From Acidobacteriota bacterium (GTDB lineage Bacteria; Acidobacteriota; Polarisedimenticolia; Gp22-AA2; AA152), in the NCBI GenBank assembly GCA_003222305.1, contig QHVQ01000079.1:1-37307 (forward strand): a stretch of 37,307 nucleotides of DNA, in the 5' to 3' direction. Numbering within the stretch: the first letter of the stretch is position 1; each line of letters starts with the position of its first letter. The position numbers were made by a program, and so were the translations under genes. Under the pieces are notes generated by a model. That model saw only the letters and a program-made list of their open reading frames with translations, had not been told where the DNA came from and did not search any database. This document shows, one piece after another, positions 7,982 to 36,623 of the stretch.

Positions 7982-8353
7982 CTAGTCCTCGGGGATCTCC
8001 GAAGGGTCGAAGCCGCCCAGGAATTCAGCCATCTCGTCGGCGCTGGTGCCTTCCTGTTTGTCGCGGTTGATGAATTCCTGGATCTCGTCTTCCAGCCTGA
8101 CCGGCTGCTCCTCCGCCGGAGGCGGAGCGGCTTTCTTGACCCGCCGCATTTTGCGGCGCTCGCGGCGAGCCTCGTCGGCATCCTGGGACGAGCCCATCTC
8201 CCGAGACTGCGAGGGGAGCGTCGAAGGGGGCGGGTCCGGAAACTCGGTGGGCAAAGACTCGGGGGAGGGGAGGAAGCCATCGATGGGGAGGCGCGCTTTC
8301 GAGAGGCGAATCTCGCGCTCCAGGCGCCGGAACAGTTCCAGCTGGCTCTTCAT
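7982..8353 (-). CDS. small charged protein of unknown function, third gene of TPR operon
   Basis: The 123-aa product is not recognised as any named family. It starts at ATG 8353 inside the stop of the TPR/coiled-coil gene (ATGA), so it is translationally coupled to it. Four parts are visible: an N-terminal helix LELFRRLEREIRLSKARLP, a proline-rich linker at about 29-48, a very basic block RRERRKMRRVKKAA at about 63-76, and an acidic C-terminal segment LEDEIQEFINRDKQEG...DEMAEFLGGFDPSEIPED. There is no signal peptide or membrane span. The basic and acidic blocks joined by flexible linkers suggest an adaptor that binds partners, possibly the two large repeat proteins encoded upstream. Function is unknown. 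Confidence 0.75.
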   Translation of the reverse strand: MKSQLELFRRLEREIRLSKARLPIDGFLPSPESLPTEFPDPPPSTLPSQSREMGSSQDADEARRERRKMRRVKKAAPPPAEEQPVRLEDEIQEFINRDKQEGTSADEMAEFLGGFDPSEIPED

Positions 8354-10377
8354 GAATTCTCCTGCTGGTACATCCGCAGACAGCGCCGCGCGTTGTCATT
8401 GAGCGGGTCCAGCTCCAGGGCCCGCTTCCAGGCCAGGATGGCCTGTTCGTGCCGGTTCAGCTTGTAGTAGGTGTTGCCCAGGTTGGTATAGGCCACCGCC
8501 GAATCGGAGCTGGTCTGAAGTGCCTGGTTGAACATCTCCAGGGCGCGGTCGTACTGCAGAGAAGTGTGATAGAGGAACCCGAGGTTGTTGTAAACCTCGC
8601 CCATGGCGGGGTCGCTCTCGATCGCTTTCCGAAAAGCCTCCTCCGCGTCGTCCGCCTTTGCCGACCTCGAGAGGACCAGCCCCAGGTTGTTCCAGGCCTC
8701 GGCACAGTGGGGCTGGACTTCCACCGCTTTGCGGAAGCTGGCCTCCGCCGGCTCCAGGGCACCCCGGTAGTAGAGGACCACGCCGCGGCTGTTGTGCTCC
8801 TGGGCCAAGCGCTGGCGAATGCGCTCCTCCTCTTCGCGGGCTGCCTGGCGATGGCTCTCGAAGGCTTTCACCACCTTCTCGTTGGACTCCCTCATCTGAC
8901 GCAGCGCGTCGTCGCCCTGCTGCACGACCTCCTCCAGGTGCGCCAACCCCGCGGCCGTGGCCTCATTCCGTTGCTGGATCTGTTGGATGGCCGAGAGGGT
9001 CAGCTCCGCGGAGGGATTCTGCTCCAGAAGGTCCCCCAGGCGGCCCAGGGTCTTGTTCGTTTCCTTTTGCGCGGCACGGACGCCGGAAATCTCCTTGGCG
9101 AGTCCGGCCAGAGCCTCGGGTCCCTGCTGGGCACCGCGCCGCATCTCGGCCAGCACCAGAGAGATCTCCTCTAGCACCTTGCCGCCGATCTCTCGCAGCA
9201 GTTGGGAGTGCTCCTCGCCCTGCTTGCGGAGGGCGGCTTCCGTCTCCTCGCGAACCAGACGCAGAAAGCCCGGAATGGCCCGAGTCTCTTCCCGCAGGGC
9301 CGTCAGTCCTGCGGCGCCTGCCTGGGCCGATTCGGCGGCACGCGATGCCAGGTCGCGAAGCGGAATCACCACTTCCTTGAGGCCTGACAATCGGTCGTCC
9401 ACGTTCTGCGTCGCCTCCCGGATTCGCTTCATCTCGTCTTGAACCGACGGCAGGGGCTGACGCGACTCCTCCAGGGCGCCCCGGACCCCCTGCACATCAC
9501 TTCGCAGGGCGGCCAGTCCTTCGGAAGCGACGCGCGACGACTCCGCCACCCGGACCGCCAGTTCCTGAAGTGGAGAAGCGGTATCCTTTAGGCCCGACAT
9601 CGTCTCTTGGACGGAGCGGGTCGCTTCTGTGAGTCTGCGAATTTCGTCCTGCAAGGGCGCGAAGGCTTGGCGCGATTCGACCAGAACCCGCTGCGCCAGC
9701 CCTTCCATGGCCGCCCGAATGGGCCCCACCCCTTCCCGTAGATCCAGGATCGACTCCTGGAGCTTGGCCAGGTCCTCGCCGAGAGGGGCCAGGGCGTCGT
9801 CGGATCGGGCTACCCGCCCGCGCAGCTCATCCAGGCGCTCGCGCAGCGCGGAGAGAGTGCGGGCGATGGAATCGGTGGCCTCCAGCGTGGCCGCGCAGCG
9901 CTCCTGCACGGCGGGGGAAGCGTCCTTGAGCTCCATCAGTGACCCGCGGACCCGCTCCGTTTCCTCCCGAAGCTCCTGCAGGGAGCTGCGCAGCGGCGTG
10001 ATTTCCTCCCGGAGGGCATCGAGCAATCCCTCCGTGCCATCCCGTCCCTTCATCGCCTGCAAGGCCGATTGGATACCGCCCAGGCCTGCCGAGAGGGGCG
10101 ACAGGTTCTCCTGGAGGATCTTCAGCGCCCAGGCGGTGGTGGCGGCGGGATCGAAGTCGCAGCGGTGCAAGGTCTCACTCGAGGTGGCCGCCTGCTCGGG
10201 ATGCTGTAGGTGGTCCTCGATCTGTTGGATCCGCCCCACGAGGCTGTGCTCCAACCCCTTGATGGACTGATCCACTTCCAGCAGGGATATGAGAATGTCC
10301 CGGCGCAGGTTGTTGTGACGCCGGTTCTCGTCGTCGGCGGTCCCGGGGGAGGGGAAAGAAAACGAGGAATCTTCCAT
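8350..10377 (-). CDS. coiled-coil protein with 70-residue repeats and C-terminal TPR domain
   Basis: The 675-aa protein has no signal peptide or membrane segment and is probably cytoplasmic. Residues about 20-60 and 85-530 are almost wholly helical heptad-like sequence rich in Glu, Arg, Leu and Ala. Within this, residues 234-303 and 304-373 are two 70-residue repeats in exact register (ESRQAFAPLQDEIRRL and ESRQPLPSVQDEMKRI), and a weaker related unit covers about 142-190. Residues about 526-661 are four consecutive 34-residue TPRs (AEAWNNLGLVLSRS, GEVYNNLGFLYHTS, AVAYTNLGNTYYKL). The long rod would hold the TPR head away from another anchoring point. It follows the 1278-aa repeat protein by 9 bp and is coupled to the small charged protein after it. 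The cellular role is unknown; a structural scaffold is an inference. Confidence 0.85.
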   Translation of the reverse strand: MEDSSFSFPSPGTADDENRRHNNLRRDILISLLEVDQSIKGLEHSLVGRIQQIEDHLQHPEQAATSSETLHRCDFDPAATTAWALKILQENLSPLSAGLGGIQSALQAMKGRDGTEGLLDALREEITPLRSSLQELREETERVRGSLMELKDASPAVQERCAATLEATDSIARTLSALRERLDELRGRVARSDDALAPLGEDLAKLQESILDLREGVGPIRAAMEGLAQRVLVESRQAFAPLQDEIRRLTEATRSVQETMSGLKDTASPLQELAVRVAESSRVASEGLAALRSDVQGVRGALEESRQPLPSVQDEMKRIREATQNVDDRLSGLKEVVIPLRDLASRAAESAQAGAAGLTALREETRAIPGFLRLVREETEAALRKQGEEHSQLLREIGGKVLEEISLVLAEMRRGAQQGPEALAGLAKEISGVRAAQKETNKTLGRLGDLLEQNPSAELTLSAIQQIQQRNEATAAGLAHLEEVVQQGDDALRQMRESNEKVVKAFESHRQAAREEEERIRQRLAQEHNSRGVVLYYRGALEPAEASFRKAVEVQPHCAEAWNNLGLVLSRSAKADDAEEAFRKAIESDPAMGEVYNNLGFLYHTSLQYDRALEMFNQALQTSSDSAVAYTNLGNTYYKLNRHEQAILAWKRALELDPLNDNARRCLRMYQQENS
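9259..9678 (-). repeat. two tandem 210-bp (70-residue) coding repeats
   Basis: The stretch encodes residues 234-373 of the coiled-coil protein. The two 70-residue units align without gaps: DEIRRLTEATRSVQETMSGL against DEMKRIREATQNVDDRLSGL, and AVRVAESSRV against ASRAAESAQA. It is an internal duplication inside a gene, not a mobile repeat. Confidence 0.8.
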
Positions 10378-10386
10378 AGCTTGCTC

Positions 10387-13300
10387 CTAGGATGTCAGGC
10401 CGAATCGAAGGACCGTCTCACCCGCCAGCTTCTGCCGTCCGGGCTCCAGTTCCTGCAGTACTATCTCTCGATAAACTCGCTGCAGCGCGGTCCGGACTTC
10501 CGGATCGGGCCCCGCCGCGTCGATCTGCTCCAGAGTACGGCAGGCCAGCAGGTAATTACCCGATCGCTCGGCGGCGAGAGCCAGGCGGCGATGGGGGCCA
10601 AGCGCCTTGAGGATTTCGGCGGCGCGGAAGTAGTCGGCGCCTTGCGCGGCGGCCTCGGAATGGATCCTCAGGAGATCGCTCGCTTCCAAGACACCGGGTC
10701 CAGAGGACAGCAGGCTGACGGCCTGAGCGGGCTCTCCAAGATCGAGCAACGCCTCGGCCAGCCGCTTCAAGTCGGAGGGGCGCGGTGGGTCACCCTGCAT
10801 GCGCTCCCGCAGCGCGCTTACCTCGTTGCGGAGGTGGGTGAGGATGCATTCGTGGACCCGGGCCATGAGTTGGTTGCGGTCGGTGGCGATCGTCTCTGCT
10901 TCGCGCAGCGCGTCGCGGGCGGCGCTCGCTTCGCCGCGCCCGAGGCGCGCACGCCAGAGGCGCACCAGCAGGATGAGTCGCTCTCCCGGCTCCCAGGAGC
11001 GCTTGAGCGCTTCCTCCAGCAGCTCGGCGGCTTCCAGGAGCTTCTCGGAGGTCAGTAGCATCTCGGAAAGGAGCGACACGAGACGGTAACTGCCGGGGTG
11101 CCTCCCATGAAGGGTGAGCGCTTGCTGCACGGCGTCTCGGAGAAGGGACGGAGTGTAGCGAACCCCGGCTTCGAGATCTTGTACCGCCGCCTCGAACTCC
11201 TGCCTGAGCGTGAGAGCCTGGGCCCGGGCCATCCGAGCCTCTCCCAGCTTGGGATCCTTCTCCACGAGCGAGGTCAATCCCTTCAGCACCTGCTCGACCA
11301 AGCCTGCCTCCCGCTCCAAAGCCTTGCGGTAAGCGCCAGCCGCCGGCGCTAGACGGCCGGCTCGAGCCAGAACCTCGGCGGCCAGGAAGGCGACGCGGGC
11401 CGTGCCGGAATCCTTCGCGATAATGGTCTCGAGCATGGCCAGCACTTCGCCCTGGGACCCCTCGGTGCGGGAAGCTGCCTGGGCGAGCTTTTCCGCCGCC
11501 GCGGGAATCTCGCCGTCCGCCAGATAGATTTCCGCCATGGCCAGATAGGGACCCGGCACCTTGGGATCCGACGCGATCATCTCGGAACACAGCTTGATCA
11601 CTTGGGGTGCGGCCGCGCGATCCACGCGGTAGGCATTCCGGCAGGCCTCGCCCGCAAGGGCTGTTTCGTTCAGAGCCCGCTGGGCCCGGGCCAGGGCCAG
11701 AAGAGCGGATGCAAGGCGGGGTGACCGGGCGAGAATCGCCTCCAGGCGTGGCAGGAGCGACCGGGCGCTCTCGGGGCGGCTCTCCAGGAGGTGTTGGATG
11801 GCATCCGTGGCGGCGGCGTCCTTTCCCAGTGAGCAGAGGATCTCCACGCGGGCCTCCGCCGCCTCAGGCAAGACGGGAAACGAGACACGGATCCGATCCA
11901 GCTCCGTGAGCACCCCTTCGGCGATCCGGGTGTCGTTGCGGAACGCTTCGAGGAGCCTCGCCACCGCGTCTTCCACCCGGCCGGTTTCGGGCAGGATCTT
12001 GCCGAGGGCCAGGGAAGCCAGAGGTAGGTTCGGGTGAAGGACCAGCAGATGCTCCAGGCGCTCCGCGGCGGTGGCCGCCAGGCTCGTGTTCTTCCGGTAG
12101 GCGTTGTAATACCGCTTCACGGCCCCGGTGCTGTCTCCCTTCTCCAGGGACACGTCACCCAGAACCAGCTGCAGCGGCGCCGTGCTGGCATCGTCCCTCA
12201 GGCGTAGCGTCTCCGAGGCCAGAGCCTGCACCTCCTCCAGCTGGCCCGAGAGGAGGAGGGCGGAGGAGAGTCCCAGCCTCACCTCGATGTCGTTGGGGGA
12301 GGCTTTCAGCGCCTCCCGGTATTTGCTCAGAATCGGGGTGAGCAGGTCCGGGTTGAGAGTTCGAATCTTGTGGAGCTCCCTTGCGGCGGCCCTGAAATCC
12401 TTCTGGTCCAGGTAGAGGCCTGCCAGGATGTAACGAACCTCCACCGTTTCCGGGTGCCGCTCCAGCAACGTTTCGAAGATTTCCCGCACTTCGTTCATCC
12501 GCTCCGGAGCAGCAGCGGCCAGATCCTTGAAGGCCTGCAACGCCTCACCCAAGGCGCCGGAGAGCAGTGCCGCCTCGCCCTGCGCGAAGCGGATCGCTGC
12601 GGGCAGGAGGTCGCGGGAGGCGAGGGAGCGATAGAGGGGGAGCGCCGCTCGGGCGGCCTCGGGGGAGGACCGGGCGGCGCTGGAAAGAAGATGCAGGGCT
12701 TCCGGCGCGCGCGCCGGATCGTTCAAAATAATCTTCTCCAGAGGCGCCAGCGCATCGAGGGACTGGCCCGCGGCGATCAGGGCCTCGGCCAACGCCAGGC
12801 ACAAGCCTGGGTGGGCGGTCTCCGAGCCCAAAGCCTCTCTCGCCCGTGCCGCCACCTCCGGCGCACCCTGAGGATCCTTGAGGAGACGGAAGCGCAGGAG
12901 CAGCGCCGCCTTCGATCGATCTCCTTCCCGCAGGAAGATCTCGGCCAATGCCCGGGCGATGGCCGCGACCGAGGTTCCCGACTCGAGCAGGGAAAGGAGC
13001 TTGGGAACCAGGATGGGGCCGTCCTCGGGCGAGAGTGCCAGAACCTTTTCGTAGCGCTCGACGCCGGCTTCACCGCGGCCGGCTTTGAAGTCGAGATCCC
13101 CCAAGAGCAGGTAAGTGCGGGCGTGGTTCGGATGAGCCCGGATCACTTTTTCGAGTGCCTTGACGGTCACCTCGTCGCCCAGCCTATCGGAGGCCAGGAT
13201 GATCGCCTCCACCGCCAGCACCGGTTTTCCGGAGGCGATGTAGGTGTCGGCCAGGGCCAGTCGCAGCCCCGGGAACTCGTCCATCTTGGGGGTCAGCTCT

Positions 13301-14223
13301 TCCAGGAGGGAGATGGTCTCTTTCTGGTGCGATCCCAACTCCGCCAGGGCTCCCAGGGCCAGGAGCATCTCCGGATACTTCGCCTCGGCGCGGCGCGCGC
13401 GGGCCAGAAGCCAAAGGAGCTCCGCTTTGCCCGGCTCCTTCTTGGCGATCCGCTCCAGCCGGACCGCCACCTCGGGCGCGGCCGCCGCGGCGTCCGCCTC
13501 CAAGGAGTGTTCCAGGTGCTTGAGCGACTCCTGGTGCTTTCCCACCTTGAGCAACAGGTCCACCAGCGTGAGGCGCAGGGGCAGGTTCTGGTAGTCGCGG
13601 GCGAGAATCGACTCCAGCCGCCCGCAGATCCGGTCCCCTTCTTCGGGGTTCTTTTCGAGGATCTGTCGGTAGGCTTGAGCCGCCCGAACGGTGTCCCCGA
13701 TCCGCTCCAACGCCAGGGCCACGTAATACGCCGAGTGAAGCGAAGTCTTGGTGAGCTTGGATAGAGGAGCGTTCTTGAGGACCGCTTCCCACTTGGCCAG
13801 ATGTCGGCCATGGTAGACGCGCAGTTCCTCGGAGGCGATTCGCTCCATCGATTCCATGGCCCGGGGATAGTCGTCCACGCGGATGAAATGCTCCGCCACG
13901 GCGTCGTAATAGGCTCCCACCGCGGCATACTTCATCTTGACTTCCTCGATGAATTCCATCACGGCGTCGATTCGGCGGGGATTACGGCGGAGAATTTTCT
14001 TGAGGCACTCGGCGGCGTCGGTCTCGCGGGAGGCCGCCAGGAGGCGGCGCGACAGCTCGAAAAGGAGAGCTTCCTTGTCGGGCTGCTTGGCCAGCGCCGC
14101 TTCCAGCGTGGCGATGGCTTTGTCGAGCTTTCCCTCGGCGGCGAGCGCCCTGGCCTTCTCCAGGGCCCGGGCTTCCGGCCCCTGGGTCAGGGACTTGAGG
14201 AGGGAGACATCGGGCAGCTTCAT
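10387..14223 (-). CDS. giant TPR-like helical-repeat protein with 52-residue period
   Basis: The 1278-aa product has no signal peptide or membrane segment. It is made almost entirely of short amphipathic helices with TPR character (Ala at turn positions, LGDLDFKAGRGEAGVERYEKVLALSP). The spacing is not the usual 34 residues. Helix pairs recur with a third helix, so equivalent anchors fall at residues 723, 775, 827, 879, 931, 983 and 1035, exactly 52 apart each time. In the N-terminal half, anchors at 203, 256, 307, 357, 409, 461 and 512 are 50-53 apart. The last about 190 residues are less regular. Such a protein should form a long superhelical scaffold for binding partners. It starts at ATG 14223 behind a weak ribosome site and a near-consensus promoter, and heads a three-gene operon with the coiled-coil TPR protein and the small charged protein. 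I do not recognise a named family. Confidence 0.85.
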   Translation of the reverse strand: MKLPDVSLLKSLTQGPEARALEKARALAAEGKLDKAIATLEAALAKQPDKEALLFELSRRLLAASRETDAAECLKKILRRNPRRIDAVMEFIEEVKMKYAAVGAYYDAVAEHFIRVDDYPRAMESMERIASEELRVYHGRHLAKWEAVLKNAPLSKLTKTSLHSAYYVALALERIGDTVRAAQAYRQILEKNPEEGDRICGRLESILARDYQNLPLRLTLVDLLLKVGKHQESLKHLEHSLEADAAAAAPEVAVRLERIAKKEPGKAELLWLLARARRAEAKYPEMLLALGALAELGSHQKETISLLEELTPKMDEFPGLRLALADTYIASGKPVLAVEAIILASDRLGDEVTVKALEKVIRAHPNHARTYLLLGDLDFKAGRGEAGVERYEKVLALSPEDGPILVPKLLSLLESGTSVAAIARALAEIFLREGDRSKAALLLRFRLLKDPQGAPEVAARAREALGSETAHPGLCLALAEALIAAGQSLDALAPLEKIILNDPARAPEALHLLSSAARSSPEAARAALPLYRSLASRDLLPAAIRFAQGEAALLSGALGEALQAFKDLAAAAPERMNEVREIFETLLERHPETVEVRYILAGLYLDQKDFRAAARELHKIRTLNPDLLTPILSKYREALKASPNDIEVRLGLSSALLLSGQLEEVQALASETLRLRDDASTAPLQLVLGDVSLEKGDSTGAVKRYYNAYRKNTSLAATAAERLEHLLVLHPNLPLASLALGKILPETGRVEDAVARLLEAFRNDTRIAEGVLTELDRIRVSFPVLPEAAEARVEILCSLGKDAAATDAIQHLLESRPESARSLLPRLEAILARSPRLASALLALARAQRALNETALAGEACRNAYRVDRAAAPQVIKLCSEMIASDPKVPGPYLAMAEIYLADGEIPAAAEKLAQAASRTEGSQGEVLAMLETIIAKDSGTARVAFLAAEVLARAGRLAPAAGAYRKALEREAGLVEQVLKGLTSLVEKDPKLGEARMARAQALTLRQEFEAAVQDLEAGVRYTPSLLRDAVQQALTLHGRHPGSYRLVSLLSEMLLTSEKLLEAAELLEEALKRSWEPGERLILLVRLWRARLGRGEASAARDALREAETIATDRNQLMARVHECILTHLRNEVSALRERMQGDPPRPSDLKRLAEALLDLGEPAQAVSLLSSGPGVLEASDLLRIHSEAAAQGADYFRAAEILKALGPHRRLALAAERSGNYLLACRTLEQIDAAGPDPEVRTALQRVYREIVLQELEPGRQKLAGETVLRFGLTS
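10966..12057 (-). repeat. seven gap-free 156-bp (52-residue) coding repeats
   Basis: This part encodes residues 723-1086. Each unit begins with a helix of the form L-E-x-I-h-x-x-x-P: LEHLLVLHP, LDRIRVSFP, LEAILARSP, CSEMIASDP, LETIIAKDS, LTSLVEKDP, ALTLHGRHP. Then comes a TPR-like helix pair (ALLALARAQRALNE...AGEACRNAY). The sequences have diverged, but the spacing is exactly 52 residues for six successive steps. Confidence 0.8.
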
Positions 14224-24512: not shown

Positions 24513-25835
24513 CTACGGGCGTCTTTTCCCTGCGGAGGCGGGCTCGGAGGAAAGAATGGAAATGGTGGAGTGCGAGGTGGTGAGGCGGTAACGGGCCTGG
24601 CCGTTCCCGACCACGCCGGCGAAGCGGGAAGGCCGGTCCTCAGGAAGGTGCAGCTCCGCGATGTTGCTTTCCACTTCGCCCTGCTCGGTGCGGGCGTCCA
24701 GACGGAATCCTTTCCCGGCCGGAGAAGTGACTTCAATCTCCTGGTTGGTGGTGGCCACTTCGATGTCCGAGCCGGGTCGGACGATTTCCACGGGCGTGTG
24801 CGTTGCGGCGACCAGGATGGGACCCCGAACGTCGCTGAGCTTCACGCTGCTGGCGGATGCCTGAACCTTCACGGCTCCCTTCACGAAGCTCGCCTCCAGG
24901 GGATCCGCCTGTACGGTGGCGTTGAGGCTGCCCTCGACATTCTCGACGGTGACGTCGCAGTGGGGAGCGTTCAGCTTCACATCGGCGCCCGCGCGCTCCA
25001 GCCGCACTCTTCCATGCTCGTTCACCAGTTCCAAGGCCCCCCGCACATCCTCGAGCGTGATGTCCGAATTGCTGGCGGTCACACGCACCTCCCCGCCCAC
25101 TTTGGAAATCCCCAGATCGCCATGGCTGTGGGTCGCCTTCAGACTTCCCGCGAGCCGTGAGAGGGTGGTGTCTCCGTGCTCACACGCGACCTCGGTGGTG
25201 CTCGCCAGGTCGCTTCCCTCGATGTCGCCGTGAGTGGTCCGCAACACCACGGCGCCCTGCACCCGGTGCAGGGTGATGGAGCCATTGTCGTTCAGCACCT
25301 CCAAGCTTCCGCCGATGTCGGCCACGTCCACGTCTCCGTGGGCGGTCTTGAGCACTACGTCCCCCTTTAACCCATGGACCGTCACCGAGCCGCTCTCGGT
25401 GACGACCTGGAGCCTGCTTTGGACCGGGACCATCAAGGTGAATTGGGTTTCGAGCCCCGAGCGAGGGGAGCCCACGGTCCGGGCGAGAAGCCCGCCGGAG
25501 ACCGGAAGGATTTCCAGGTGGAGCTGGGCGGCTTCGATGGCGGCCTCCTCTTCTTTCTCCTGGTGAATCTGCTTCTTGACTTCTACCCGGACCTTCGGCT
25601 CGCTCCAGGTCATGACTTCCACGTCGCCGCGACCTGCTTCCAGCGCCAGGTGACCGCCGGTAGCCAGCTGTGCCTCTTGCGCTTCGGTAAAGGTGTGCAG
25701 AGGGCCCCGAAGAAATTCCAGCCCCTCCACCCGCACATGGGCGGGAAGGATACCCTGATGGAGCTTGTGGGCCACCGTAATGCCGCTGCCGAGCAGCAGG
25801 AAAAGGATCAGCAATGCGACGTCCCGCCGGGTCAT
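24513..25835 (-). CDS. DUF4097-type beta-solenoid protein, membrane-anchored
   Basis: The 440-aa product starts at ATG 25835, overlapping the stop of the small membrane gene (ATGA). An N-terminal signal anchor (VALLILFLLLGSGITVAH, about 6-23) exports it. Residues 148-381 are thirteen consecutive 18-residue repeats without a single gap, of the form HGDVDVADIGGSLEVLND. Hydrophobic residues alternate, His/Asn-Gly-Asp opens each unit and Gly sits at about position 10-11. This is the DUF4097 (putative adhesin) right-handed beta-solenoid pattern. Such proteins often accompany LiaI/LiaF-type membrane proteins and envelope-stress systems, and its partner here fits that. A cell-envelope structural or sensing role is likely; a precise function is not known. 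Confidence 0.88.
   Translation of the reverse strand: MTRRDVALLILFLLLGSGITVAHKLHQGILPAHVRVEGLEFLRGPLHTFTEAQEAQLATGGHLALEAGRGDVEVMTWSEPKVRVEVKKQIHQEKEEEAAIEAAQLHLEILPVSGGLLARTVGSPRSGLETQFTLMVPVQSRLQVVTESGSVTVHGLKGDVVLKTAHGDVDVADIGGSLEVLNDNGSITLHRVQGAVVLRTTHGDIEGSDLASTTEVACEHGDTTLSRLAGSLKATHSHGDLGISKVGGEVRVTASNSDITLEDVRGALELVNEHGRVRLERAGADVKLNAPHCDVTVENVEGSLNATVQADPLEASFVKGAVKVQASASSVKLSDVRGPILVAATHTPVEIVRPGSDIEVATTNQEIEVTSPAGKGFRLDARTEQGEVESNIAELHLPEDRPSRFAGVVGNGQARYRLTTSHSTISILSSEPASAGKRRP
24693..25394 (-). repeat. thirteen gap-free 54-bp (18-residue) coding repeats
   Basis: This stretch codes for residues 148-381 of the DUF4097 protein. Units include SGSVTVHGLKGDVVLKTA, NGSITLHRVQGAVVLRTT, HGDTTLSRLAGSLKATHS, NSDITLEDVRGALELVNE and ASSVKLSDVRGPILVAAT. 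DNA identity between units is low, so this is an ancient protein-level repeat. Confidence 0.85.
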
Positions 25836-26044: not shown

Positions 26045-26111
26045 AAGCGGCACCCTCCTTCCACCGGCTAGAACGGAAGTCTCAGCGAAAAAGTTCAGCC
26101 AAGGACCACGG

Positions 26112-26141
26112 TTGACGGCCCTGGGAGCGCTAGTGTACATT
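26112..26141 (+). promoter_or_regulatory. candidate promoter for the flippase-nrdR operon
   Basis: TTGACG (26112-26117) and TACATT (26136-26141) are 18 bp apart. Transcription would start near 26148, about 115 nt before the ATG at 26263. No coding sequence of good quality lies in the leader. No clear promoter was found for the opposite-strand membrane gene in this 218-bp gap. Confidence 0.4.
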
Positions 26142-26262
26142 CCCGGCCGATTCGGCTCCAGCGCGTCGCCTCCGCCAGCCCTCGCGCGGGGAAGTCCGAT
26201 CCCGCTAGATCCAACTGCCACGTGGCCTTCACCGCGAAAGAGAGCGGGGAGCCGGTCCCTGG

Positions 26263-27285
26263 ATGAAGCGCTATCTCTGGTTCGGACTCAGTCTCCTGCT
26301 CTCGCTCATTCTCATCCTCATCTGCTTCCGTGACACCGATCCGCGCGAGGTGGCCCGCGCGCTCTCGCTGGCCCATCCGGGCTACCTGGCCCTGGCGGTG
26401 GCGATCGGAGTGGTGAGCTTCACGGGCCGGGCGCTGCGGTGGCGGACGCTCCTTTCGCATCTCAGGCCGGGCGTGCCTCTCGGCGGGCTGTTCAGCTGCA
26501 CGGTCATCGGCTTCATGCTGTCGTACGTGCTTCCGCTCCGGGTGGGCGAGCTCGCGAGGCCGATCCTCCTGGCGCGACGCGAGAAGATGAGCAAGGCGTC
26601 GGTCATCGCTACGGTGGCGGTGGCGCGGATGATGGATTTCTTGACCGTGCTCCTCTTCTTCTCCATCTACCTCATCGGTTTTTCCTCGCGCCTCCCGGTC
26701 GCCGGATCCCCCTGGATCCAGCAGATGCGCGCGCAGGGGATCCAGGTCGGATGGGTCATCCTGGCGGCGGTGCTCGGTCTGTACATTACCGTGCTGACTC
26801 GGGACCGTGTCTTCCGGTTCCTGGAGGCGAAGACGCGCGAGGGGAGCGTCCTCCGGAAACTGGTAGATTTCCTCCACGCCATGGTGCGGGGCTTTGAGGT
26901 CCTGAAGGGAGGCCGTGCGCTCGCGGTCGGGATGCTCTACACTTTGGCGACCTGGTCGCTGATCGACCTGAGCATTCTCGCGGGCTTGAAGGCATTCGGC
27001 CTGCCGATGGACTTCATCGACGTGTTTCTGCTGCTCGCATTCCTGGCGGTGGGGATTGCCGTGCCCACTCCCGCCGGGCTGGGAAGCTACCAGTTTCTCG
27101 GAATGAAGTGCCTGGAAGAGGTCTATGGCATCCACAGCGAGGTCGCGCTGGCGGCCATCTGGGCGCAGTGGTGCATCGCCGTGGTTCCGGTGATGGCTCT
27201 GGGAGCGATTCTCATCTGGAAGGAGGGACTCTCGGTGGGTCAGGTTGGCAGGATGCTGCAGTCCGAGCGAGAGGCATCGCGGTGA
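26263..27285 (+). CDS. lysylphosphatidylglycerol synthase-like TM protein (UPF0104, flippase-like)
   Basis: The 340-aa integral membrane protein starts at ATG 26263 and has about eight hydrophobic segments, beginning [19 protein letters not shown]. Family signatures are present: [55 protein letters not shown] at 53-107 (conserved G-x-x-x-N/S-x-x-L-P-x-R-x-G-E-h-x-R) and the late [17 protein letters not shown] at 266-282. This is the membrane domain shared by MprF-type lysyl-PG flippases and by archaeal AglD. No aminoacyl-transferase domain is attached, so it probably moves a lipid or polyprenyl-linked intermediate across the membrane. The stop overlaps the GTG start of nrdR. Confidence 0.88.
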
Positions 27286-32954: not shown

Positions 32955-33689
32955 ATGAAGTGGAGCGCCGGAAGGGCTGCCAGAGCTTCGGTCGTCTGCC
33001 TCCTCGTTATCCTTTGCGACGGGTTTCTCCTTTCCCACACGGCTCCGACCCCGAAGGGCACGCACCTCCCCACGCAGCTCTTTGCCGTGCGGTTCAAGGA
33101 TGTGAACGATGTCTATCTGCTCATCGAGCCCCTCCTCTCGGCACGGGGCTCGGTGCAGATGCAGCCGCGGCTGAAGACCCTGGCAGTCACCGACGACGAG
33201 GAGACCCTGAAGAAAATCGAAGCGATGATTCAGAGCTACGACCTTCCCCCCAAGAACGTGGATGTCGCCCTCCAACTGATCCTGGCCACCACGGAGAAGC
33301 AGCCCGAGAAGATCTCCCCGCGCATTCGGGGCGTCATCGAGAAGCTCAACGAGATTTCCACCCGCTGGTCGGATTATCGCTTGCTGGGGAGCACCACCAT
33401 CACGGCGAGCGAAGGAGACAAGGCCAGCGTGGAGATGGGGGAAGATTACCGGATCAGCTTCGCCGTGGACTACGTTTCCGACGAGCAGAGGCTGGTGCGC
33501 TTCAAGCGCCTCACCCTGGACCGCCGGGACGCTTCGAGGGACCCGGAAGCAAACGGCGAGACCTACAGCCGGGTGCTGGATACGGCGTTCAGCCTGAAGG
33601 AGGACAAGCTCCTCGTCTTGGGCGCCACGAAGCTGGAGAGCAGCAACCGGGCGCTGTTCATGACCATCACGGCTTCCGCACGACCCTAG
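32955..33689 (+). CDS. exported secretin-N-like protein without secretin barrel
   Basis: The 244-aa product starts at ATG 32955 behind GAGGAG. It has a signal sequence (ASVVCLLVILCDGFLLSHTA). Residues about 41-97 look like the N-domain repeat of secretins (NolW-like): LFAVRFKDVNDVYLLIEPLLSARGSVQMQPRLKTLAVTDDEETLKKIEAMIQSYDLP. The remaining 150 residues are beta-rich (YRISFAVDYVSDEQRLVRFKRL, FMTITASARP) but do not match the pore-forming secretin domain. It lies 15 bp after the membrane-protein gene and 12 bp before pilC. It may be a periplasmic or outer-membrane accessory that docks on a secretin encoded elsewhere. Confidence 0.75.
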   Translation: MKWSAGRAARASVVCLLVILCDGFLLSHTAPTPKGTHLPTQLFAVRFKDVNDVYLLIEPLLSARGSVQMQPRLKTLAVTDDEETLKKIEAMIQSYDLPPKNVDVALQLILATTEKQPEKISPRIRGVIEKLNEISTRWSDYRLLGSTTITASEGDKASVEMGEDYRISFAVDYVSDEQRLVRFKRLTLDRRDASRDPEANGETYSRVLDTAFSLKEDKLLVLGATKLESSNRALFMTITASARP

Positions 33690-33701
33690 GGAGTTTCGAT
33701 C

Positions 33702-34919
33702 ATGCCCGAGTTTATCGCCAAAATGGGAACCGCCGACGGGGACGTCATCGAGCGCGTTTATCTCTCCGAGAACGTGGACTCGCTGCGGCGCGACCTGGAA
33801 CGGAAGGACTTTCTGGTCTTTTCCATCCGTCGCAAGGCGAGCTTCGCCTCGCTGATCCCGGGCCTGGGGCGCAAACGGATCAAGATGAAGGAGTTTCTGG
33901 TTTTCAACCAGCAGCTCGCGGCGCTGATCCAGGCCGGGCTTCCCATCATCTCTTGCCTGGATGTTCTGCTGGAGCGGCGGAAAAACCCGGTGTTCAAAAA
34001 GGCTCTCTCCGATATCCGGGACCAGGTGAAAGCAGGCACGGCCCTTTCGGAGGCGTTTACCTCCCAGGGGGACCTGTTCCCTCCCATTTACTCCGCTTCC
34101 CTGGCCTCGGGGGAGCGCAGCGGTGAGGTGGCCTCGGTCCTCCGCCGCTACATCGTCCACACGAAGAAGGTGTTGGGCCTGAAGAGCAAGGTGATCGCGG
34201 CCCTGATCTATCCCGCCATCCTTTTTTGTATGTCATTCGTAGTCGTCGGAGTGCTGATCTACTACGTCATCCCCAAATTCTCGGAAATTTATGAGGGATT
34301 CGGCGGCATCGAGAATCTTCCCCTCATCACGAAGGTGCTTCTGGCGTTCTCCACTTTCGCTACGCATAACGCCCTGATCATGGTGGGCGGGATTCTGGCG
34401 GGATTCATAGGCTTCAGCGCCTGGCGGCGCACCCCCTCGGGCTCAGTGACCGTGGACGGATGGATTCTGAAAATCCCGCTCGTGGGCGGCATTGTGCACA
34501 AGTACTGCATCTCGCGCTTCACCCGAACCTTGGGAACGCTGGTGGCCGGCGGGATCCCGCTGGTCAATTCGCTGGAGATCGCCGCCCCGGCCGCGGGGAA
34601 CAAGCTGTTCGAGAAGCGTCTCACGAAGGTGCCCGGGCGGGTCCGGGAGGGGAATGCCCTGGCGGGTTCGCTGGAGGAGACTAGGCTCTTCTCCGACTTG
34701 GCCCTGGAGATGATCAAGGTGGGGGAGTCCACCGGGGCGCTCCAGGAAATGCTGGATAATGTCTCATCCCTCTACGACGAGGAGATCGATGACAGCCTCC
34801 AGAACATCGAGGCGCTCATGGTGCCTGTCATGCTGGTGTTCATGGGAATGGTCATCGCGTTCATCATGCTGGCCATCTACCTGCCCCTCATCAAGAGCTA
34901 CGGGATGCAGGGGCATTAG
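33702..34919 (+). CDS. pilC: type IV pilus / type II secretion inner-membrane platform protein PilC (GspF family)
   Basis: The 405-aa protein has the typical duplicated GspF domain. The first half is FLVFNQQLAALIQAGLPIISCLDVLLERRKNPVFKKAL...SGERSGEVASVLRRY, residues about 65-155. A membrane segment follows (VIAALIYPAILFCMSFVVVGVLIYYVIPKF). The second half is RFTRTLGTLVAGGIPLVNSLEIAAPAAGNKLFEKRL...MIKVGESTGALQEML, closing with MVPVMLVFMGMVIAFIMLAIYLPL. The N-terminal about 60 residues (FIAKMGTADGDVIERVYLSENV) are the short beta-strand extension often seen in PilC. It sits in the inner membrane and couples the ATPase PilB to pilin assembly. It precedes pilB by 27 bp. Confidence 0.93.
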   Translation: MPEFIAKMGTADGDVIERVYLSENVDSLRRDLERKDFLVFSIRRKASFASLIPGLGRKRIKMKEFLVFNQQLAALIQAGLPIISCLDVLLERRKNPVFKKALSDIRDQVKAGTALSEAFTSQGDLFPPIYSASLASGERSGEVASVLRRYIVHTKKVLGLKSKVIAALIYPAILFCMSFVVVGVLIYYVIPKFSEIYEGFGGIENLPLITKVLLAFSTFATHNALIMVGGILAGFIGFSAWRRTPSGSVTVDGWILKIPLVGGIVHKYCISRFTRTLGTLVAGGIPLVNSLEIAAPAAGNKLFEKRLTKVPGRVREGNALAGSLEETRLFSDLALEMIKVGESTGALQEMLDNVSSLYDEEIDDSLQNIEALMVPVMLVFMGMVIAFIMLAIYLPLIKSYGMQGH

Positions 34920-34946
34920 GGGCGCACGAGCGCCAGGAGGCAGGTT

Positions 34947-36623
34947 TTGGCACAAGAAGAGAAGGATCGCAAGAGCGCGGCCGCAGGGTTGGCCGAAGCG
35001 TCGGCGGTGGCCCTCCCGCCGCAGCTCCCGCGCGAGCCCGAGACCCTCTCGGAGGACCTGCACGCCCAGCGCTTGGCGGAGCGACTGAGAATTCCTTACG
35101 TGAATCTCAAAGACTTCCAGATCGATGCCGAGCTGTTCCGGTCCATTCCGGTGGACCTCATGTTCCGCTACAACTTCGTCCCCTGGAAGGTGGAGGAAGG
35201 GCGGCTGGTGGTGGTCATCGCGGACCCCAGCAACGTCCTCATGATGGACGATCTGGAGTTGTTGCTGGGCCGCCCTCTGGTCCCCGCCGTGGGGAGTCCT
35301 TCCGCTATCCAGGAGATCTTGAAGAAGAGCGAGTCCTCGCAGCGGGTGCTGGAGGAGGCCACCGAGGAGTTCAAACTCCAGCTCATCCAGGAGGACGAGG
35401 CCGGCGAGGACCAGCTCACCATCGACAAGCTCACCTCCGACCAGAGCCCCATCGTCAAGCTGGTGGACACCACCATCTTCAACGCCCTCCAGCGCCGGGC
35501 CTCGGACATCCACATTGAGACCCGGGACCGGGAGGTGATGATCAAGTATCGGATCGACGGCGTACTTATCAACGCCATGGAGCCCATCGACAAGAAGTTC
35601 CACTCCACCATCATTTCCCGCATCAAGGTCATGTCCGAGCTGGACATCGCCGAAAAGCGCGTGCCACAAGACGGCCGTTTCAAGCTGAAAATCCGTGGGA
35701 GGGCCATCGATTTCCGCGTCTCCATCATGCCCAGCGTTCACGGCGAGGACGCGGTCATCCGGATCCTGGACAAGGAGTCCGTGAATGAAGAATTCGCAGA
35801 GCTGAGGCTGGACGTACTGGGATTCACGCTCGAAGACCTCAGAAAGCTCAGAAAATTTATCCGGGAACCCTACGGGATGATTCTGGTCACCGGTCCGACG
35901 GGAAGCGGCAAGACCACCACCCTCTACGCCGCCCTGTCGGAGATCAAGAGCGTGGAGGACAAGATCATCACCATCGAGGATCCCGTGGAGTATCAGCTCC
36001 AGGGAATCACCCAAATCCCGGTGAATGAGAAAAAGGGGCTCACCTTCGCTCGGGGCCTGAGGTCCATTCTCCGCCACGATCCGGACAAGATCATGGTGGG
36101 AGAGATTCGCGACGAGGAAACGGCGCAGATCGCCATCCAATCGGCGCTCACGGGACACCTGGTTTTCACCACCGTCCACGCCAACAACGTGGTGGACGTG
36201 TTGGGGCGTTTCCTGAACATGAAGGTGGAGCCCTACAACTTCGTGTCGGCTCTGAACTGTATCGTGGCCCAGCGGCTGGTGCGGCTCATCTGCACCCGCT
36301 GCAAGCACCCCGTGCGGTATCCCCGGGCGATCATCGAGGAGAGCGGTCTGGATCCGGCGCGCTACGCGGATCACGTCTTCCAGGAGGGCCGAGGGTGCCT
36401 GGACTGCAACGGCACCGGCTATAAGGGACGGATGGCCATCGCGGAGATTCTGGACATGTCCGATCGCATCAGGCAGCTAATCCTGGATCGGCGCTCGGCG
36501 GCGGAGATCAAGAAGGCTGCACGGGAAGAGGGGATGGTCTTCATGCGTGAGATGGCGGTGGCCCGAGCCCTCGAAGGGGTCACCACCCTGCGGGAAATCA
36601 ACAAAGTCACTTTTGTGGAGTGA
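34947..36623 (+). CDS. pilB: type IV pilus assembly / secretion ATPase PilB (GspE family)
   Basis: The 558-aa product starts at TTG 34947, six bases after a perfect AGGAGG. One GspE N-terminal (MshEN-like) domain covers about 35-120 (LAERLRIPYVNLKDFQIDAELFRSIPVDLMFRYNFVPW). The AAA-type core follows with the Asp box and Walker A GPTGSGKT at 316-323, then Walker B and His box (ILRHDPDKIMVGEIRDEETAQIAIQSALTGHLVFTTVHAN). The zinc-binding Cys pairs are Cys449/452 (CTRC) and Cys484/487 (CLDC). The order Walker A, Asp box, His box and tetra-Cys marks an assembly ATPase rather than the retraction ATPase PilT. It powers polymerisation of a pilus or pseudopilus. The large antisense ORF here is a shadow. 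Confidence 0.95.
   Translation: MAQEEKDRKSAAAGLAEASAVALPPQLPREPETLSEDLHAQRLAERLRIPYVNLKDFQIDAELFRSIPVDLMFRYNFVPWKVEEGRLVVVIADPSNVLMMDDLELLLGRPLVPAVGSPSAIQEILKKSESSQRVLEEATEEFKLQLIQEDEAGEDQLTIDKLTSDQSPIVKLVDTTIFNALQRRASDIHIETRDREVMIKYRIDGVLINAMEPIDKKFHSTIISRIKVMSELDIAEKRVPQDGRFKLKIRGRAIDFRVSIMPSVHGEDAVIRILDKESVNEEFAELRLDVLGFTLEDLRKLRKFIREPYGMILVTGPTGSGKTTTLYAALSEIKSVEDKIITIEDPVEYQLQGITQIPVNEKKGLTFARGLRSILRHDPDKIMVGEIRDEETAQIAIQSALTGHLVFTTVHANNVVDVLGRFLNMKVEPYNFVSALNCIVAQRLVRLICTRCKHPVRYPRAIIEESGLDPARYADHVFQEGRGCLDCNGTGYKGRMAIAEILDMSDRIRQLILDRRSAAEIKKAAREEGMVFMREMAVARALEGVTTLREINKVTFVE

Follow-up and report, generated by a model that had tools for sequence, protein, structure and literature searches.

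Repeat solenoids are classed by the number of helices in each unit and by their period. The canonical TPR, represented by the Pfam models TPR_19 and TPR_16, the consensus CTPR proteins and the TPR domain of O-GlcNAc transferase, is a 34-residue hairpin of two helices, A and B, whose signature lies at positions 7, 8, 20, 24, 27 and 32. The classes covered by a recent review of TPR-type repeats are 34-38 residues long, and one of 50-52 residues was not found there (PMC12691811). A 52-residue or three-helix TPR was likewise not found in the literature searched, which counts as weak evidence, subscription journals being mostly outside that scope. Among the large TPR proteins, the eukaryotic scaffolds IFT139/TTC21B, SKI3/TTC37 and CTR9 are subunits of large assemblies, and the large cytoplasmic protein SgmX of Myxococcus recruits PilB, the pilus ATPase, to the cell pole (PMC7519303).

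The protein studied here, which we call the scaffold for its putative role, is encoded in a window of 37,307 nucleotides, the whole stretch of Acidobacteriota DNA that was analysed (Table 1). It is a real and regular variant of the well-known TPR architecture, of modest novelty. It shares with the canonical TPR the A-B hairpin and the signature positions, but differs from it by a period of 52 instead of 34 residues and by a predicted third helix per unit. Several Pfam TPR models score above their cut-offs and match many stretches of the protein, TPR_19 being the strongest quoted. The best NCBIfam match, which reflects TPR similarity, is PrsT (PEP-CTERM TPR, TIGR02917; 2.8e-36); identity with PrsT was rejected on the score of 124.8 bits, far under the curated cut-off of 312.2. 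A three-helix solenoid of the ARM/HEAT type was also rejected, since only TPR models exceed the Pfam cut-offs.

Table 1. Features of the scaffold, of the genes that follow it and of other parts of the window.
Feature	Coordinates	Strand	Evidence
Scaffold protein, 1278 aa, TPR-variant solenoid, module gene 1	10387..14223	-	ORF and translation; Pfam TPR_19 4.3e-38
N-terminal classical two-helix TPRs (residues ~16-94)	13942..14178	-	Pfam TPR_19, TPR_16 at 21-84; modelled helices
Solenoid, 17 predicted three-helix (A-B-B') units of ~52 residues (residues ~159-1096)	10936..13749	-	AlphaFold2 secondary structure, lag analysis, unit HMM
Predicted extra helix between two units (residues 521-535), register shift +18	12619..12663	-	AlphaFold2 models; units at 472 and 542
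Single plain two-helix TPR within the solenoid (residues 646-678)	12190..12288	-	AlphaFold2 model; Pfam TPR_17 at 635-665
Helix C, gap-free exact 52-residue register (residues 723-1043)	11095..12057	-	Sequences at 723, 775, 827, 879, 931, 983, 1035
Conserved C-terminal tail RQKLAGETVLRF (residues 1263-1274), predicted disordered	10402..10437	-	pLDDT and conservation
Partner, 675 aa, long coiled coil and C-terminal Asn-rich classical TPRs	8350..10377	-	Pfam; alignment of 14
Third gene, 123 aa, charged, probably disordered	7982..8353	-	Alignment, genome distribution, hydropathy
Long ORF without Pfam match	24516..25835	-	
Long ORF without Pfam match	26098..27135	-	
Type II secretion/type IV pilus-like genes (secretin-type domain, T2SSF, T2SSE with MshEN)	32955..36623		

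When the scaffold is compared with itself without gaps at all lags from 5 to 399 (BLOSUM62, against 200 shuffles), the strongest signal falls at lag 52 (z 10.8); next come 104 (z 8.5), 156 (z 6.4) and then 70, 34 and 122. If the comparison is limited to residues 700-1110, z is ~10 at both 52 and 104; for residues 200-560 it is 5.1 at lag 52. These values confirm the strong gap-free 52-residue period that a sequence-only reading of this DNA had ascribed to the protein. The seven helices that it had placed exactly 52 residues apart are indeed found at that spacing (Table 1), and their proposed motif, L-E-x-I-h-x-x-x-P, holds for the proline at +8 in six of the seven (serine in the helix at 931), but the LE start is present only at 723, 827 and 931. 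The looser series that it had described towards the N-terminus is also real: a unit HMM for which residues 734-1045 of the orthologues were the sole seeds also picks up units elsewhere in the protein, at ~214, 318, 368, 420, 472, 542 and 594, in a register that slips by ~2 residues and is interrupted by the extra helix listed in Table 1.

The consensus of this HMM is PEAYLALARILAALGRVAAAVEALREALRLDPSL followed by AERVLEELEALLAADPGS. Positions 1-34 of the unit are a canonical TPR, with conservation peaking at the six signature positions, small or hydrophobic residues at 7, 8, 20, 24 and 27 and proline at 32 (consensus AEARLALAEALLAAGRFDEAVEALRAALRLDPEL), and the unit profile aligns with consensus TPRs at residues 1-37. 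Positions 35-52 form a further predicted helix of 18 residues, helix C, with its own conserved positions at 39, 42 and 50. The idea that the 52-residue repeat stands instead of classical 34-residue TPRs therefore finds no support, as a canonical TPR is present in every unit, and classical TPRs are not replaced throughout either: a tandem 34-residue period with two helices is absent from the solenoid and is found only at the N-terminus (helices modelled at 16-29, 33-44, 50-64, 67-80 and 82-94) and in the single repeat at 646-678. Of the suggestion of a distinct repeat class, what survives is that the period and the third helix set these units apart; the unit fits better as a TPR subtype of the form A-B-B', its helix C being similar to helix B. 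The similarity between helices B and C was matched by none of 2000 column permutations, and the A-B and A-C comparisons were not significant by the same test. This suggests, without proof, that helix C arose by duplication of helix B, although the likeness could be due instead to a shared amphipathic register and a common 'DP' end.

Full-length relatives of ~1257-1300 residues, one of them split by frameshifts, occur in 14 other genomes, spread between the genus of the window itself and a second class of the phylum; a near relative, at locus L031, belongs to a metagenome-assembled Acidobacteria genome. With the window's own copy, the full-length scaffold is present in 15 of the 396 Acidobacteriota genomes sampled. 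A two-unit profile detected no other protein at E <1e-10 in 100 genomes, and the plasmid records gave no match. The frameshifted copy of G008, which also has masked bases, was left out of the alignments A2 and A3. In alignment A2 (the scaffold and 13 orthologues), where identity falls to 23% and few indels are seen in the solenoid, lag 52 outscores every other lag from 20 to 129 in all 14 sequences (z 6.4-12.8), so that the 52-residue period is a property of the family and not of one sequence. The control consisted of 505 ORFs, none shorter than 300 residues, from all the loci retrieved, some 60 of which had been chosen for TPR families, and is a partly redundant sample of ORFs rather than a full proteome. 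In this sample, a best lag of 52 or 104 at z of at least 6 was seen only in the scaffold family, and the other periodic TPR ORFs mostly peak at 34 or its multiples and have z near 0 at lag 52, which bears out the view that the scaffold is unlike ordinary tandem TPRs. At L034 and L052, around contig 10 of G003, several ORFs match themselves strongly at a period of 81 residues.

Could the scaffold nevertheless be an ordinary TPR protein, in which degenerate 34-residue repeats are spaced by chance with some inserted helices and do not make up a separate repeat type? A positive signal is seen at lag 34 too, in the scaffold and its orthologues (z 3-6), and both the many Pfam TPR matches and the plain TPRs of the N-terminus and residues 646-678 speak in the same direction. 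We hold this to be quite improbable, since lag 52 exceeds lag 34 in every orthologue tested, the other TPR proteins sampled have z ~0 at lag 52, and a third helix is predicted by AlphaFold2 in all the solenoid units but one. Furthermore, lags 34, 70 and 122 equal 52-18, 52+18 and 104+18, as expected if each unit of 52 residues holds similar helices spaced by 18.

AlphaFold2 run on residues 1-908 without an alignment gave a mean pLDDT of 68, with helix triplets where the model is confident. Run on residues 79-1278 with 14 sequences, a shallow alignment dominated by two families, it gave a mean pLDDT of 86.7 and A/B/C triplets throughout, the three-helix units starting at 159, 214, 267, 318, 368, 419, 472, 541, 594, 679, 734, 787, 838, 890, 942, 994 and 1046 (protein residue = model residue + 78). 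The prediction agrees with the TPR-like hairpin plus third helix per 52-residue unit that had been anticipated, over ~900 residues and 17 units; the pTM of 0.40 means that the overall superhelix path is not to be trusted. Against solved structures, the Foldseek search returned IFT139/TTC21B, SKI3/TTC37 and CTR9 as best matches (E 5e-17 to 1e-11), and O-GlcNAc transferase. The first three are of similar size to the scaffold, but the similarity is local, with 11-14% identity, TM ~0.1 and partial profile matches, and the global TM-scores, normalised by query length, are as low as 0.08-0.18 against TPR superhelices of known structure. No closer match was obtained among viral proteins, where the TM-scores were low. 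A sequence/profile search of solved structures returned ordinary TPRs; it bears on the A-B hairpin but not on the unit of three helices.

Another family of the phylum invites comparison. The SgmX-like TPR proteins (NF052243) are also large and have a period other than 34 (54, with 34 and 20), but in them the extra helix lies, by eye, between A and B instead of after B, and they carry long acidic linkers. Members at L064, L061 (1498-3903) and L019 have the appearance of a three-helix TPR derivative with its extra helix placed differently. Given the 54-residue period of these proteins, the scaffold family is probably not the only one to contain three-helix derivatives of the TPR.

The scaffold is the first gene of a three-gene operon. 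The partner begins 9 bp downstream of the scaffold stop, and the third gene overlaps the partner stop by 4 bp. The third protein matched no known family, and its alignment reveals a conserved N-terminal motif, LFRRLE...DAFLP. The partner directly follows the scaffold in 14 of 14 loci examined, the small gene follows the partner wherever the contig extends far enough and the gene can be recognised, and the arrangement is conserved across the sampled families, among them f21, which belongs to a different class. In 100 genomes, the scaffold and the partner occur in the identical 15, of which 14 also have the small gene; the exception is G014, whose contig ends just past the partner. The small-protein match in G018 is weak (1.8e-5), and in G006 the scaffold contig ends within the partner, the partner and the small gene being matched on another contig. 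The hypergeometric probabilities of this co-occurrence (~4e-18 for scaffold and partner, 3e-16 for the small gene) count the genomes as independent and, the genomes being related, exaggerate how remarkable the coincidence is; the co-occurrence is also seen in five families outside f1, the family of the window. In the families f2, f5 and f9, the partner N-terminus carries a conserved four-cysteine motif, CPxLS...EC....C.F...DC, that resembles a metal site (L036:7687-9078, L041:11002-12546 and L043:11335-12339); this motif is absent from the partner in f1, f8 and f21.

In the loci compared, no neighbour beyond the three genes is conserved that points to a process. Pilus-like genes (T2SSE/PilB-type, T2SSF, secretin-type domain; ~32.9-36.6 kb) do lie in the window, and the combination of a large TPR protein with a coiled-coil partner could be that of a regulator of motility or type IV pili acting like SgmX. 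We consider this unlikely: the pilus genes are ~20 kb away and are not kept beside the module in other genomes, the scaffold has no match to SgmX (NF052243 is absent from its NCBIfam matches at E up to 1), and the SgmX-like proteins form a separate family with a period of 54 that is present in the phylum, including the genus of the window. Helical repeats longer than the TPR are often RNA binders (PMC12691811), which would make the scaffold an RNA-binding or RNA-processing protein of the PPR/OPR kind; this is very improbable, as Pfam and NCBIfam give TPR rather than PPR or OPR, the protein is slightly acidic (172 K+R, 181 D+E) and its partners have no RNA-related domain. A role in anti-phage defence might be imagined, since the scaffold is large and repetitive, its operon is patchy in distribution and the coiled coil of the partner has weak PADLOC matches to JetC and ZorA; we regard it as hardly credible. 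These matches are coiled-coil similarity only, the module has no nuclease, NTPase or other effector, and, unlike mobile defence genes, it is kept at one constant place in nearly all the sampled members of one order.

The model we favour, with somewhat more belief than doubt, is that the scaffold is a cytoplasmic TPR-derived protein which probably forms a single assembly with the two proteins encoded downstream. Hydropathy reveals neither a transmembrane segment nor a signal-like N-terminus in any of the three proteins, whose location would be the cytoplasm. In the scaffold, some 17 units, each made of a canonical 34-residue hairpin (A, B) and an 18-residue third helix, would stack into a long α-solenoid. 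The coiled coil of the partner would drive oligomerisation, and the groove of its Asn-rich classical TPRs would bind a short conserved peptide, which may be either the C-terminal tail of the scaffold or the N-terminal motif of the small protein, LFRRLE...DAFLP. A disordered tail that is conserved often serves to bind a folded partner. In the scaffold, disorder is predicted for the final residues (pLDDT <50), and RQKLAGETVLRF, the candidate ligand (L-x-[GA]-E-T-x-L-x-F), is among the most conserved 12-residue windows of the protein (0.43, against a mean of 0.29); this tail looks like a docking peptide. We put forward only tentatively, and with more doubt than belief, the wider view that A-B-B' is a distinct TPR class, born of the duplication of helix B and endowed with its own superhelix geometry, that would form the framework of a cytoplasmic assembly of three proteins, undescribed so far and confined to some lineages of Acidobacteriota.

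In conclusion, a natural, gap-free three-helix derivative of the TPR that extends over ~900 residues would be a test case for the effect of an added helix on the pitch and the groove of a superhelix, and would also serve as a template for design. The strict linkage of three genes, together with a tail of the docking type, makes this module an unnamed and testable candidate complex in a poorly studied phylum.
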